Assembly: GCA_902826455.1 (NCBI GenBank)
Contig: CADEEV010000043.1
Location: 1-41,045, forward strand
DNA length: 41,045 nucleotides
Source: an uncultured Acidobacteriota bacterium
Lineage (GTDB): Bacteria; Acidobacteriota; Vicinamibacteria; Fen-336
Direction of reading: 5' to 3'
This document shows positions 19,288-25,922 of the stretch, piece after piece. The translations under genes were made by a program, and so were the position numbers. Each line of letters opens with the position of its first letter. The first letter of the stretch is position 1. The notes under the pieces were generated by a model, which worked only from the letters and a program-made list of their open reading frames with translations, had not been told where the DNA came from and ran no database searches.

Positions 19288-21089
19288 ATCGCGGCCGAGC
19301 GCGGCGCCACTCGCACGCTCCCGACGCCCGCGACGGCGCGCAGCTCGGGCGCGCCGCCGAGCCGGTCCTCGAGCACCGCCCCGTCCGGCAGGCCCGTGCC
19401 CGCGAGGGGTATCTCGAGCGGCGCGTCCTTCGTGTCGTTGTTGAAGACCACCACGACCGCCTCGCCGTCGAGCACGCGCGCGAAGGCCCAGGCCTGCTCG
19501 CCCACGAGCAGGTCCCGGGTCGCGCCGCGCCGCAGGGGCGGGAGCTCGCGGCGCAGCCGGGCGAGGCGCCGCACCGCGTCCCACACCACCGCCTGCTCCG
19601 GAGTCCGGAGCGCCGCCTCGAACGCCGGCGCCGGAAAGTCGCGCCGGTTGTCGGGGTCGTTGCCACCCGGCAGCGCAATCTCGTCGCCGGAGTAGACGAG
19701 GGGGATGCCCCGCACCGTGAACAGCAGCGTGAACGCCAGGCGCAGGCCGTCGAGCGTCGCGCCGGGCTCGCTCGCGAAACGCGCGACGTCGTGAAGGCCC
19801 AGGAACGTCCAGAGCCGCTCGGGATGCGCGTAGAGCCGGTCCCGCGCCAGCATCTGGGCCACCGGCCGCAGCGGCTTGCCCTCGGCGAAGGCGGCGCGCA
19901 ACGGGTAGTAGAGAGGGAAGTCGAACAGGCCGTCGACCCCGGCGCTGCCCTCGAAGAACGACACGAGCGCGGGATCGCCGTCGAACATCTCCCCCACCAC
20001 CGTCAGCGAAGGACGCGCCGCCTTCAGGCTGCGCATCCACTCGCGCCAGAACGTCCCCGGCACGTACGGCAGCGTGTCCTGGCGGATCGCGTCGAGGCCC
20101 AGGCGCTCCACCCACCACAGCGAGTTCTGGATCAGGTAGCGCGCCGTCTCGGGATCGTCCTGGTTGAGGTCCGGCAGGATGTCGAGGAACCAGCCTTCGA
20201 GCGTCGCGCGCTGCAGCTCGGGGGTCGCATGGGGATTGGCGAGGGTCCAGGTCTGCCAAATGTTCGCGAGGTGGCGTTCCGAGCTGCCGTTGAACCAGGT
20301 CGGCGTCGGCGGGTCCCGCAGCCACGGGTGGTAGGGCCCGGTGTGGTTCGCGACCTGGTCCTGCACGACCTTGATCCCCACCGCGTGGGCCGCGTCGACG
20401 AGCTCCTTCAGGGTCGCGAGCGTCCCGAGATGCTCGTCGACGCCGTAGAAGTCCACGGCGCCGTAGCCGTGGTAGTCCGTGATGCCCGCCCCGTCGTAGC
20501 GCTCGCGCTCGTTCACGCGGTCGACGTTGTCGTACCAGGGGTTGAGCCACAGGGCCGTGACGCCGAGGGCCTTCAGGTAGGGCAGCCGATCGATCACACC
20601 GCGCAGGTCGCCGCCGTGGTAGAAGCGCGCCTTCGCGGGGTCGAACAGGCCCTTGGAACGGGTCGGGTCGTCGTTCGTCGGATCCCCGTTCGCGAAGCGG
20701 TCGGGCATCAACAGGTAGACCACGTCGTCGGGACCGATGCCGGCGAAGCGGCCTTCGGGCGGGAGCGGCTCCAGCACCTCGAAGTCCACGCGGGCGCGGC
20801 CGCGGGGCGTCGCGAGCGTCAGGTGGCGGACGCCCGCCGCCGCGGCCGGGTCGATCGTCACGTCCACGAACAGCGCCGTGCCGCGGGCGTTGACCGTCGG
20901 CGCGCCCAGGCTCACGCCGGCCGTGCTCTCGAGCCGGGCGCCGCCGAGGTTCTGGCCGCGGATCAAGAGACGCACGGGGTCGAGCGAGTGCCCGCGCCAC
21001 CAGCTCGGGGGCTCGACCGTCGCGACGAGGGGCGCCTGGGCGAGCGCCAGGGGAGCGCAGGCCGCGAGGGCCAGCGCGAGCAGCCTCAC
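19260..21089 (-). CDS. GH13 alpha-amylase / cyclomaltodextrinase-like enzyme, exported
   Basis: 609 residues from GTG 21089, overlapping the MFS stop (GTGA). Signal peptide about residues 1-18, then an Ig-like cyclomaltodextrinase N-domain (about 22-108; VEPPSWWRGHSLDPVRLLIR). The GH13 barrel carries catalytic residues D338 (GLDAIRQDT), E367 (VVGEMFDGD) and D434 (LGLHDVARF), with a C-terminal beta domain after about 520. The usual NHD motif reads LHD. It should hydrolyse maltodextrins, cyclodextrins or pullulan in the periplasm and feed maltose and short oligomers to the co-encoded transporter. The much longer open frame upstream overlaps the MFS gene and is not used. Confidence 0.9.
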   Translation of the reverse strand: MRLLALALAACAPLALAQAPLVATVEPPSWWRGHSLDPVRLLIRGQNLGGARLESTAGVSLGAPTVNARGTALFVDVTIDPAAAAGVRHLTLATPRGRARVDFEVLEPLPPEGRFAGIGPDDVVYLLMPDRFANGDPTNDDPTRSKGLFDPAKARFYHGGDLRGVIDRLPYLKALGVTALWLNPWYDNVDRVNERERYDGAGITDYHGYGAVDFYGVDEHLGTLATLKELVDAAHAVGIKVVQDQVANHTGPYHPWLRDPPTPTWFNGSSERHLANIWQTWTLANPHATPELQRATLEGWFLDILPDLNQDDPETARYLIQNSLWWVERLGLDAIRQDTLPYVPGTFWREWMRSLKAARPSLTVVGEMFDGDPALVSFFEGSAGVDGLFDFPLYYPLRAAFAEGKPLRPVAQMLARDRLYAHPERLWTFLGLHDVARFASEPGATLDGLRLAFTLLFTVRGIPLVYSGDEIALPGGNDPDNRRDFPAPAFEAALRTPEQAVVWDAVRRLARLRRELPPLRRGATRDLLVGEQAWAFARVLDGEAVVVVFNNDTKDAPLEIPLAGTGLPDGAVLEDRLGGAPELRAVAGVGSVRVAPRSAAIYAMRTLSK

Positions 21090-22399
21090 CGCGCGGCCGC
21101 GGCTCCGGGGTCGTCGCGAACGAGCTGCGTGAGGCCCGCGGCGATCATCAGGAACACGCCGCCCGCGACGACCGCGGCCAGGCGGTTGTTGCCGAGCAGG
21201 TGCTGCATCACCCAGCCGAAGCCCAGCGACGCCGCGATCTCGGGCAGCACGATGAAGAAGTTGAAGATGCCCATGTAGACGCCGGTCTTTCCGGGCGGCA
21301 GGGAGCCCGACAGGATCGCGTAGGGCATCGACAGGATGCTGGCCCAGGCGATGCCCACGCCGACCATGGACAGCAGCAACAGGTTCTTGTCGTGGATGAC
21401 GGCCACCGACAACAAACCCGCGGCGCCCATCAGCAGGCACAGGCTGTGGGTGTGGCGGCGGCCCAGGGACGCGGCGAGCCTCGGAAGCACGAACGAGAAC
21501 GCGAAGGTGACGACGGAGTACATCGCGAAGCACAGGCCCGCCCACTCGACGCCCTCCCGGTAGAGGGGGGAGGCCTCGTCCGGCGCGCCGAACACGTTGC
21601 GGGCGACGGCCACGCCGAAGTAGAGCCACATGCAGAACAGGCCGAACCACGTGCACACCTGCACGAGGGCGAGCTGCTTCATGACCGTCGGCATCGACCC
21701 GATCGCCTCGAGGATCTCGCGGCTGGTGGCCGCGAGGCCGACGCTCCGCGCCTTCGCGGCCTCGAAGGCCGCCATGTCCTCGGGCGGATACTCCTTCGTC
21801 GTGACGATCGTCCACAGCACGGCGCCCAGGAACGCCGCGGCGCCGACGTAGAACGAGATCTTGACGTTCAGCGGGATCGCGTGGCCTCCGCCGCCCGTGA
21901 CGCCGAGATAGTTCGTGAGGATGTAGGGCAGGGCCGAGGCGATCACGGCCCCGAGGCCGATGAACAGGCTCTGCATGGCGAAGCCGTCGGTGCGCTGCTC
22001 GGGCGGCAGCATGTCGGCGACGAAGGCCCGGAACGGCTCCATGCTGACGTTGATCGAGGCGTCGAGGATCCAGAGCAGGCCTGCCGCCATCCACAGCGCG
22101 CTGGCGTTGGGCATCAGGAGCAAGGCACCCGAGGCGAGCAGCGCGCCCACCAGGAAGTAGGGCCGGCGGCGTCCCAGCGGGCCCCACGTGCGGTCGCTCA
22201 TGTGGCCGATGACCGGTTGCACGAGCAGGCCCGTGAGCGGAGCCGCGAGCCAGAGCATCGGGATCTGCTCCGGCTTCGCCCCGAGGTACTCGTAGATGGC
22301 GCTCATGTTCGCCATCTGCAGCCCCCAGCCGAACTGGATGCCCAGGAACCCGAAGCTCATGTTCCAGATCTGGGGGAAGCTCAGGCGGGGTCGGTTCAT
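21086..22399 (-). CDS. MFS transporter, SLC45/maltose-permease-like
   Basis: 437 residues with about twelve hydrophobic helices. The segment [20 protein letters not shown] followed by [16 protein letters not shown] is the family hallmark between helices 2 and 3, seen in SLC45-like sugar symporters that in bacteria lie beside maltodextrin genes. It probably imports maltose, maltodextrin or sucrose with protons across the inner membrane. ATG 22399 overlaps the malQ stop by four bases (ATGA) and its own TGA overlaps the amylase GTG (GTGA), so malQ, the transporter and the amylase are translated as a unit. Confidence 0.9.
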
Positions 22400-23940
22400 C
22401 GGGGCTCCGGGCCTTGCGGCGCGCGATCGTAGATCCGGGACAGCTCTCCGAGACGAGCGGCGACGGCCGGGGCGAGCTGGCCTTCGGTGAGTCGCCACTT
22501 CCAGTTCCCCGCCGCGCGTCCGGGCAGGTTCATGCGCGCCTCGCTGCCCAGGCCCAGGAGGTCCTGCACCGGCACGATCGCGGTGTCGGCCACGGACGCC
22601 AGGGCGGCACGCACGAAGTCCCAGTGGATCTCGTGGCCGTCGGTGCCCAGGTAGGCGCGGGTGAGAGCCTGCTCCGCGTCGACCTCCGCCTGGGTGCGGG
22701 TCGAGTCGCCCACGCCGGCGTTCCACCAGCCCACGATCGTGTCGTTGTCGTGGGTCCCGGTGTACACCACGAGGTTGCGGGGGAAGTTGTGGGGCTGGAA
22801 GGCGTTCGCCGAGCCGTCGTTGCCGAAGGCGAACTCCAGGATCGCCATGCCCGGGAAGCCGTAACGATGCCGCAGCGCCTCGACCTCGTCGGTGATGACG
22901 CCGAGGTTCTCGGCCACGATCGGCAGCGGGCCGAGGGCCTCCTGCAGGGCGTCGAAGAACGCGCTGCCGGGGCCCTTCACCCACGAGCCGTTCATGGCCG
23001 TGGTCTCGTGACCAGGAACCTCCCAGTAGGCCTCGAAGCCACGGAAGTGGTCGAGGCGCACGAGGTCGACGAGGCCCAGCACCGCGCGCATGCGGTCGAT
23101 CCAGAAGCCGAAGCCGTCGCGGGCCATCACGTCCCAGCGATAGAGCGGATTGCCCCAGAGCTGGCCGGTGGCGCTGAAGTAGTCCGGAGGCACGCCGGCC
23201 ACGAAGCCGGGACGGCCGTCGGCTGCCAGTGCGAAGAACTCGGGATGCGCCCAGACGTCGGCGCTGTCGTGGGCCACGAAGATCGGCACGTCGCCCATGA
23301 TGCGGATGCCCTCGGCGTGGCAGGCCTCGCGCAGGGCGGCCCACTGGCGGAAGAAGCACCACTGCCAGAACTGGCGCGAGCGCACGGCGGTCGCGAGGCG
23401 CTCCCGGGCCTGCCCGAGCACGACGCTCTCGCGCACCGCGAGGCCCTCGGGCCAGGTGTGCCAGGCCGTGCCGCCGTTCTCCTTCTTGAGGGCGTCGAAG
23501 AGCGCGTAGTCGTCGAGCCAGGCGGCCTCGCGCTCGCAGAACGCCGCGAGCTCCGCCCGTTGCGCGGCGGAGGCGTCGGCCTCGAAGCGCTCGAAGGCCT
23601 TCTGCAGGAGCGGCATGCGGAAGGCCGTCGCGGCGGCGAAGTCCACCTCGTTCGCGGGAAACGCCGGGGGCTTCCGCAGCTCGGCGCCCGTCAGGAGCCC
23701 CTCGTCGCGCAGGGCGTCGAGGGCCACCAGCAGCGGGTTTCCGGCGAAGGCCGAGAAGCACTGGTACGGGGAATCGCCGTACCCCGTCGGGCCCACGGGC
23801 AGGACCTGCCACAGCCCCTGCCGGGCGCTCGCGAGGAACGCGACGAAGTCGTGGGCGGCCCGGCCGAGGTCGCCGATGCCGAACGGTCCGGGGAGCGAGG
23901 TCGGGTGGAGGAGCAGCCCCGCGGTCCGCGCCTTCCCCAC
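22396..23940 (-). CDS. malQ: 4-alpha-glucanotransferase (amylomaltase, GH77)
   Basis: 514 residues, the normal length of bacterial amylomaltase. It transfers maltodextrin units between chains, releasing glucose, in the cytoplasm. Visible motifs: LHPTSLPGPFGIGDLG at the N-terminus, YGDSPYQCFSAFAGNPLL, catalytic nucleophile D297 (VRLDHFRGFEAYW), acid/base E344 (IVAENLGVIT) and D398 (GTHDNDT). It starts at GTG 23940, 11 bases after the lipoprotein gene, with AGAAGAGG as the ribosome site. Together with the downstream MFS importer and exported GH13 enzyme it completes a short maltodextrin route. Confidence 0.95.
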   Translation of the reverse strand: MGKARTAGLLLHPTSLPGPFGIGDLGRAAHDFVAFLASARQGLWQVLPVGPTGYGDSPYQCFSAFAGNPLLVALDALRDEGLLTGAELRKPPAFPANEVDFAAATAFRMPLLQKAFERFEADASAAQRAELAAFCEREAAWLDDYALFDALKKENGGTAWHTWPEGLAVRESVVLGQARERLATAVRSRQFWQWCFFRQWAALREACHAEGIRIMGDVPIFVAHDSADVWAHPEFFALAADGRPGFVAGVPPDYFSATGQLWGNPLYRWDVMARDGFGFWIDRMRAVLGLVDLVRLDHFRGFEAYWEVPGHETTAMNGSWVKGPGSAFFDALQEALGPLPIVAENLGVITDEVEALRHRYGFPGMAILEFAFGNDGSANAFQPHNFPRNLVVYTGTHDNDTIVGWWNAGVGDSTRTQAEVDAEQALTRAYLGTDGHEIHWDFVRAALASVADTAIVPVQDLLGLGSEARMNLPGRAAGNWKWRLTEGQLAPAVAARLGELSRIYDRAPQGPEPR

Positions 23941-23951
23941 TGGAACCTCTT

Positions 23952-24431
23952 CTAGGAGACTTTGACGAGGAGCGACTGCTCGAGGGTGTTGCCCTTGTCG
24001 TCGACGGCACGCACGCGGATCACGAGGGAGGCCGCGCGCTTCGCCGTCGCCACGTAGCTCAGCTCCTGGGGGATCTCGAGGACGCCCTTCGCCTCGACGC
24101 GCTTGCTGCCGATGAAGACGACGAGGTCCTTGTCGTCGTAGAACGCGCTGCCGATGAGAGCGCCCGTGAGGTCGTCGAAGAGACGCGTGTCGACGAGCTC
24201 CAGCGTGGCGCCGAGCCCGTTGAGCTCCGTCACCTTGGCGGTGCCGCGGACGACGAAGGTGGAGCCGCTGGTCACGACCGTGGCGATGGGGTTCGGAGCC
24301 ACGGTGAGCTGGATGACGGAGTTGGCGACGCCCGTCACGGGCGGCGTGTCGTCGCCGCCGCAGCCCGCGAGAGCCACGAGGGCGACGAGGGCGGCGGTTA
24401 GACCGAGGGTGCGGAACGCGGTAGCGAGCAT
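23952..24431 (-). CDS. Putative lipoprotein of unknown function
   Basis: 159 residues from ATG 24431. Signal peptide with lipobox LAGC (C24) followed by GGDDTPP, so a lipid-anchored periplasmic or outer-membrane protein. The mature part looks like one beta-sandwich (VIQLTVAPNPIATVVTSGST, SYVATAKRAASLVIRVRAVD), as in Ig-like or bacterial surface domains. It lies 2 bases after the CDGSH gene and 11 bases before malQ on the same strand. A glycan-binding lipoprotein would suit the operon, in the manner of SusE-like proteins, but no carbohydrate-binding signature is visible. Confidence 0.82.
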   Translation of the reverse strand: MLATAFRTLGLTAALVALVALAGCGGDDTPPVTGVANSVIQLTVAPNPIATVVTSGSTFVVRGTAKVTELNGLGATLELVDTRLFDDLTGALIGSAFYDDKDLVVFIGSKRVEAKGVLEIPQELSYVATAKRAASLVIRVRAVDDKGNTLEQSLLVKVS

Positions 24432-24433
24432 CG

Positions 24434-24667
24434 TCAGGCCTTGGGCGCCGGCGGCGGCAGGTCGCGCGCCGGGCACTCGGACGCGAAGCCCATCTTTCCG
24501 TGGCTCCCGTCGCAGAACGGCTTGTTGGAGGAATGGCCGCAGCGGCAGAGCCCCAGGGCCGTCCGGCCGCCGAGCCCGAACGGTTTCCCGTCCTGGTCGA
24601 CGATCGTGATGTCTCCCTCGAGGCGCAGCGGGCCGTTGTTGCGCACGATCACCTTGAAATCCGACAT
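24434..24667 (-). CDS. CDGSH-type iron-sulfur protein
   Basis: 77 residues with a single CDGSH motif, CRCGHSSNKPFCDGSH, which binds a 2Fe-2S cluster through three cysteines and one histidine. The N-terminal beta segment (VIVRNNGPLRLEGDITIVD) is typical of small bacterial CDGSH proteins. Such proteins are redox- or iron-linked; no specific reaction is known. The start ATG 24667 is fixed by TAGAAT ending 8 bases upstream, with no Shine-Dalgarno, predicting a leaderless mRNA that also carries the lipoprotein, malQ, transporter and amylase genes. A 25-bp dyad covers this promoter. Confidence 0.9.
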   Translation of the reverse strand: MSDFKVIVRNNGPLRLEGDITIVDQDGKPFGLGGRTALGLCRCGHSSNKPFCDGSHGKMGFASECPARDLPPPAPKA

Positions 24668-24692
24668 GGGTTTCCATTCTACATGGAAGCCC
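24668..24692. promoter_or_regulatory. 25-bp dyad operator over the CDGSH/malQ operon promoter
   Basis: Left arm GGGTTTCCAT, centre TCTAC, right arm ATGGAAGCCC: nine of ten arm positions pair, the mismatch being T opposite G. It begins one base upstream of the CDGSH ATG and contains the TAGAAT -10. An additional ATGGAA half-site lies at 24701-24706. Position and symmetry suggest a repressor operator. Confidence 0.55.
24676..24681 (-). promoter_or_regulatory. -10 element of leaderless CDGSH/malQ operon promoter
   Basis: Reads TAGAAT on the minus strand and ends exactly 8 bases before ATG 24667. No -35 is recognised. Confidence 0.6.
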
Positions 24693-24721
24693 GAGGCGGC
24701 ATGGAATACGGGGCCGCGGGA

Positions 24722-24727
24722 TAGACT
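24722..24727 (+). promoter_or_regulatory. -10 element of leaderless promoter for coiled-coil gene
   Basis: TAGACT followed by 7 bases and ATG 24735. A GAGG directly touches the ATG, too close to act as a normal Shine-Dalgarno. Divergent from the CDGSH promoter. Confidence 0.55.
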
Positions 24728-24734
24728 CGTGAGG

Positions 24735-25922
24735 ATGGCACCCCGGGAGGAGACGAAGCCGAGACGGCCCCGACTCGAGAACAAGGTCGTGGACGCGGCC
24801 TTCGACCGGCTCGCGAAGCAGCGCGCCCTCCACACCCTGGTGCGCGGCGCGCTGCCCGTGGCGACGCTCAAGCGGCTCCTGAAGGACGCCATGCCGAAGA
24901 ACAAGGCGCGCGAGATGCCCGACGAGACCTGGTCGAGCCTGGCGGTCGGCATCTGCATGGAGAGCGCCGACTTCGGAGACACCCTCGCCGAGGCGCTCCA
25001 CGAGCGCGTGGGCTGGGACCGCGAGCCCGCCGCGATGGACGACTGGTGGCGCGCGGTGCGCGAGCGCCCGCTCGAGGCGCTCTGGATGGCCGCCCTCTCC
25101 TCCTCCAAGGACGTCAAGAAGGAATTCGCCCACATCGCGAGCCACTGCATCGAGAACTTCCGCTCCTCGCCCGAGTCGGTGCCGCCGTCCTGGGAGTACG
25201 TCGAGGGCCTGCTCGACGTCATGGCCGTGACGAACCAGGACATGCGCGACGCCGAGCGCGACGCCGACGACGCCGTCCGGAAGTACGAGGTGGAGCGCGA
25301 GCGCCTCGACGACCTGCGCGACGAGCTCCGGCGCCAGCGGCGCGAGCTCGCCGAGCTCCGGGCCGAGGTCGCGGACTACCGCCGCGAGGCGCCGGCCGCC
25401 CCCGCCGACGGCACACCGCTCTCCGACGAGGCGCGGCGCAGCGAGGATCTCGAGCGCCGCCTGCGCAAGTCGGAGAAGGAGCGCGAGCACCTCCACCGCC
25501 GCATCGAGCGCCTCGAGGACGCCCTCGAGGGACGCGAGGACGAGGGCGAGGCCGGAAGCGAGGCGGTCGAGACCGCGGCCGGTTCCGACCCAGCCGAGCT
25601 CGAGGACGCGAACCCGATCGCCGACGATCCCAACCCGCGCCGGCGCGTGATGCGCGCGATGCTGAAGAAGCTCCTGAAGAAGGGCAAGGTCGGCGCGTCC
25701 CACACCCACGAGGACAACGTGCATCGCGGCGTCGCCGACCACGAGAAGGGCCTCGCGAAGGAGGCGATCGACCTGCTGTACCGCGAGGGCTACTTCGTGC
25801 CGAAGCCCACCACGACCGACCCCCACGTCTCGATCGCCCCCGAGCGCGTGGCCGAGGTGAAGGCGATCATCGCCGGCGAGGTCCAGGACGCGCGCCTGCG
25901 GCGCTTCCTGGAGAGCGAGTGA
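24735..25922 (+). CDS. Coiled-coil protein with possible C-terminal winged-helix domain
   Basis: 395 residues from ATG 24735; upstream in-frame codons are rejected because the -10 lies there. Three regions are visible. Residues about 1-155 are a helical globular domain (KVVDAAFDRLAKQRALHTLV, WMAALSSSKDVKKEFAHIAS). Residues about 160-270 are a long charged coiled coil (KYEVERERLDDLRDELRRQR). After an acidic linker, residues about 305-395 form a basic alpha/beta module (MRAMLKKLLKKGKVGASHTH, EDNVHRGVADHEKGLAKEAI, DLLYREGYFVPKPTTTDPHV). This resembles a small winged-helix-like module I recall from archaeal proteins. No enzyme motif is seen. A nucleic-acid-associated role is inference. It overlaps ygfZ by four bases (GTGA). 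Confidence 0.82.
   Translation: MAPREETKPRRPRLENKVVDAAFDRLAKQRALHTLVRGALPVATLKRLLKDAMPKNKAREMPDETWSSLAVGICMESADFGDTLAEALHERVGWDREPAAMDDWWRAVRERPLEALWMAALSSSKDVKKEFAHIASHCIENFRSSPESVPPSWEYVEGLLDVMAVTNQDMRDAERDADDAVRKYEVERERLDDLRDELRRQRRELAELRAEVADYRREAPAAPADGTPLSDEARRSEDLERRLRKSEKEREHLHRRIERLEDALEGREDEGEAGSEAVETAAGSDPAELEDANPIADDPNPRRRVMRAMLKKLLKKGKVGASHTHEDNVHRGVADHEKGLAKEAIDLLYREGYFVPKPTTTDPHVSIAPERVAEVKAIIAGEVQDARLRRFLESE

Follow-up and report, generated by a model that had tools for sequence, protein, structure and literature searches.

Two probable back-to-back leaderless promoters beside a CDGSH-malQ operon of an Acidobacteriota bacterium, and a dyad on one of them that is more probably accidental than regulatory

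Does a near-palindrome lying exactly on a bacterial promoter mark a repressor binding site, or can the promoter element itself give rise to it? The question was raised by the 41,045-nt stretch of an uncultured Acidobacteriota genome analysed here (the window). Its first-pass annotation described a 25-bp dyad on the promoter of a putative operon and proposed it as a candidate operator. The features concerned are as follows.

21086 to 22399, minus strand: MFS-type sugar transporter (open reading frame and sequence; family assigned by eye)
22396 to 23940, minus strand: MalQ, 4-alpha-glucanotransferase of family GH77 (PF02446, E 1.9e-179)
23952 to 24431, minus strand: small lipoprotein-like protein, operon gene 2 (open reading frame; 40% identical to the homologue at the same place in relative G005)
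24434 to 24667, minus strand: CDGSH iron-sulphur protein, 77 aa, operon gene 1 (Pfam PF09360 zf-CDGSH, E 1.7e-18)
24668 to 24692, no strand: imperfect dyad of 25 bp, with 10-bp arms, a 5-nt loop and 9 of 10 pairs
24676 to 24681, minus strand: leaderless-type -10 of the CDGSH operon (TAGAAT), separated from the ATG by 8 nt and recurring in relatives
24701 to 24706, plus strand: third ATGGAA hexamer, outside the dyad (from sequence)
24722 to 24727, plus strand: -10 of the divergent gene (TAGACT), separated by 7 nt from the ATG at 24735 (from sequence)
24735 to 25922, plus strand: divergent coiled-coil protein of 395 aa, function not assigned (weak coiled-coil Pfam hits only)

The geometry of the dyad was largely as first described. 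It consists of GGGTTTCCAT (24668-24677), TCTAC (24678-24682) and ATGGAAGCCC (24683-24692), and the only unpaired position in the arms is T24671/G24689. The TAGAAT element (24681-24676 on the minus strand) is covered by the first arm and the loop. One base had been placed between the dyad and the start codon; in fact none is present, and the dyad abuts the CDGSH ATG (24667-24665, minus strand). The dyad is AT-richer than its surroundings, as claimed (52% GC, against 71% for the whole window), and the additional ATGGAA brings the ATGGAA/TTCCAT hexamers to three within 35 bp, all of them intergenic. A symmetric site with an AT-rich core that overlaps the -10 next to a start codon, accompanied by a third half-site, is what a lineage-specific operator would look like: a dimeric repressor encoded elsewhere would bind the dyad over the -10 and block polymerase at this operon alone. 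We regard this as possible but rather unlikely, for reasons that emerge below.

The promoters themselves were assessed against the genome. In 2.84 Mb, with genes called by GC-frame composition and the gap counted in nucleotides from the end of TANNNT to the start codon, TANNNT preceded in-frame starts at gaps of 6, 7, 8 and 9 with frequencies of 9.1, 6.4, 6.4 and 6.4 per 1000, compared with 3.7, 2.8, 2.0 and 2.0 per 1000 for out-of-frame ATG/GTG. The commonest -10 hexamers of this leaderless class were TAGAAT and TAGACT, and no conserved -35 was found in the genome's leaderless-type promoters. The CDGSH promoter fits the class in both respects, its gap falling within the 6-9 peak and its -10 being kept in relatives, so the earlier leaderless reading holds. 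Judged from motif and position, the intergenic region is well supported as carrying two putative back-to-back leaderless promoters. TAGAAT would drive the CDGSH-lipoprotein-malQ-transporter operon and TAGACT the divergent gene, with RNA polymerase predicted to start at, or a base or two from, each start codon. Leaderless transcription with TAGAAT or TAGACT as the -10 appears widespread in this Acidobacteriota lineage. Going by L034, the closest named relative, the genome would sit in or near Thermoanaerobaculia. The position of the predicted start also bears on whether the dyad could act in the mRNA, as a hairpin hiding the start codon region. Its arms would be able to pair if the RNA began farther upstream, but the dyad lies upstream of the presumed leaderless start and would thus not be transcribed, and its folding was no better than that of shuffles (z -0.40), making a hairpin very improbable.

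If a repressor acted through the dyad at several promoters, further copies would be expected. The annotation had pointed to a genome search and to other genes or a regulator as places where the dyad might recur. No second copy of the 25-mer was detected at up to 3 mismatches in the whole genome (5.26 Mb), one of the two outcomes that the annotation itself had named as counting against its proposal. The core TTCCAT-N5-ATGGAA had one other match genome-wide at 1 mismatch, within a coding region. When regulon members were searched for in 2.84 Mb, allowing the core up to 2 mismatches, 1 noncoding match was obtained, whereas 30 permuted palindromes averaged 3.7, and half-site spacings from 0 to 25, scanned in the same 2.84 Mb, showed none enriched beyond controls. 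Recurrence before other genes or a regulator gene thus did not exceed that of permuted controls, which argues against an operator. The single copy also speaks against a remnant of a mobile or repeated element (a terminal inverted repeat or a REP-like unit, for example); the dyad is an intergenic inverted repeat, as such a remnant would be, but this origin has almost nothing to recommend it.

The locus was then compared in relatives, all from other genera of the same family, including five with the CDGSH-malQ linkage and two with the divergent neighbour. The dyad was absent in every one of these other-genus relatives, and also in the loci of a second genome collection, including one that is 79% identical (L034). 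A -10 (TAGAAT, TACAAT or TATAGT) precedes CDGSH without the dyad in seven of the family relatives (G002, G003, G005, G006, G009, G010 and G011), although in G005 and G002 it sits farther from the ATG. In G005 the -10-bearing half TAGAATGGAA was kept and the opposite arm was not, and the AGTCTA of the divergent promoter was retained in G006 and G011. A search of 60 relatives for the 23-mer, with no more than 2 mismatches allowed, gave scattered single 2-mismatch matches, at a frequency similar to that of a reversed control. The comparison therefore indicates that the dyad is not conserved even where the operon or the divergent pair is shared, which is the other outcome named in the annotation and weakens the operator reading further. 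Since all the relatives belong to other genera, operators could still have turned over within the family.

In G003 and G010, two members of one genus (loci L008 and L010), the CDGSH promoter reads ATTCTAATAGAAT, a palindrome of 13 bp without mismatch that encloses the -10. This palindrome differs from the dyad of the window.

The gene neighbourhood supports the operon assignment: CDGSH, lipoprotein, MalQ and MFS genes lie in series, malQ ends and the transporter gene begins within a shared ATGA, and the CDGSH-MalQ link is kept in the family. malQ follows CDGSH in five other-genus relatives (G002, G003, G005, G009 and G010; loci L003, L004, L008, L009 and L010), with the lipoprotein gene between them in G005, and a literature search on CDGSH and glucanotransferase did not find a conserved CDGSH-malQ pair. 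Homologues of the divergent protein occur in G005, G006 and G011, and in the latter two the gene is divergent to CDGSH. The conserved parts of this protein in the three relatives are the first ~160 and the last ~100 residues.

No regulator gene was found divergent to or within the CDGSH operon. A LacI regulator near the operon was considered and rejected, no LacI genes being present there; the genome's two LacI-family genes are on other contigs, one beside glgC and the other beside a glycosidase-like gene. A LysR-type gene near 18.3-19.0 kb made a LysR box (T-N11-A) worth considering at the centre of the dyad; this was likewise rejected, the symmetric pair at that distance being C/G by eye. 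With no repressor gene adjoining it, no second copy in the genome and no conservation in the relatives, the dyad is not supported as the candidate operator proposed at first.

The annotation further held that chance was unlikely, which proved overstated. Dyads with at least 9 of 10 pairs and loops of 3-8 numbered ~55 in the window, compared with 23-45 in second-order Markov sequences, and the dyad at 24668-24692 is AT-richer than most of them. The window holds a single TTCCAT-N5-ATGGAA core, and a match to it at up to 2 mismatches was obtained in 9 of 100 shuffles. When the -10 was fixed and its flanks were shuffled, 53 of 4000 sequences (1.3%) scored as well as the dyad, which exceeds chance expectation only weakly. 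Given this 1.3% and the ~55 such dyads, one somewhere in a 41-kb window is not improbable, and a window with dozens of promoters should fairly often hold one such -10 dyad. These results call for caution: in DNA of 71% GC, dyads with 9 of 10 pairs turn up often, and one half of such a dyad is easily provided by a -10 element.

On the other side, inverted repeats centred on the -10 were in excess in this genome. Among 238 leaderless-type promoters, 17 such repeats were found at a score of at least 6, compared with 5.3-6.2 expected from shuffles that did not preserve dinucleotides. The excess was specific to the -10 centre and not to neighbouring positions; TANNNT at other distances from the start showed a weaker one (17/372 versus ~9.5). 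When the data were divided by sampling, 8 versus 2.75 were obtained in the first sample and 8 versus 3.3 in the hold-out, whose count was reached by 3 of 60 shuffle sets. In the 2.84 Mb sampled, the repeats (e.g. L134:4478, L176 and L141:10361) were ~2.5-3 times as frequent as in shuffles, and less so in the hold-out half. Their arm sequences were mutually unrelated. A Pfam scan of ten genes downstream of such repeats identified one PadR-family regulator, a point in favour of operators; the other assignable genes encode enzymes, a chaperone-type protein, a protease or secreted proteins. The excess indicates that such dyads are not all due to chance, and some are probably operators, which is why an operator at 24668-24692 keeps the limited weight given to it above. 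If it were one, the dyad would be a single site of local interest. A broader proposal, to which we give little credence, is that leaderless promoters of this clade carry above-chance, unrelated inverted repeats on the -10, this dyad among them, as private operators for many repressors or as a structural trait of -10-only promoters.

Taken together, the results make it more likely that the dyad mirrors the -10 stretch without having been selected than that it is an operator. Because it is unique and missing in all relatives compared, the ordinary leaderless promoter is the dependable feature here. At a probability of about 0.62, we favour two leaderless promoters on which the dyad would be for the most part a chance reflection of TAGAATGGAA, the stretch with the -10 in it, and would play no part in regulation. 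The genome's excess of -10-centred repeats and the three clustered hexamers are the points against this accidental reading.

Like operators of the TetR, MarR, LacI and PadR types that overlap a -10, the dyad falls within 15-25 bp and lies over the -10; unlike them, it comes without a partner regulator, a second site or conservation. TA-led leaderless TANNNT promoters are known in high-GC bacteria and Deinococcus-Thermus (PMC3160421, PMC12340547). The two putative promoters resemble these in having TANNNT a few bases from the start codon, in not requiring a -35 and in not needing a Shine-Dalgarno sequence. They show no substantial difference from them, the setting here being an Acidobacteriota genome in which two of them stand back to back.
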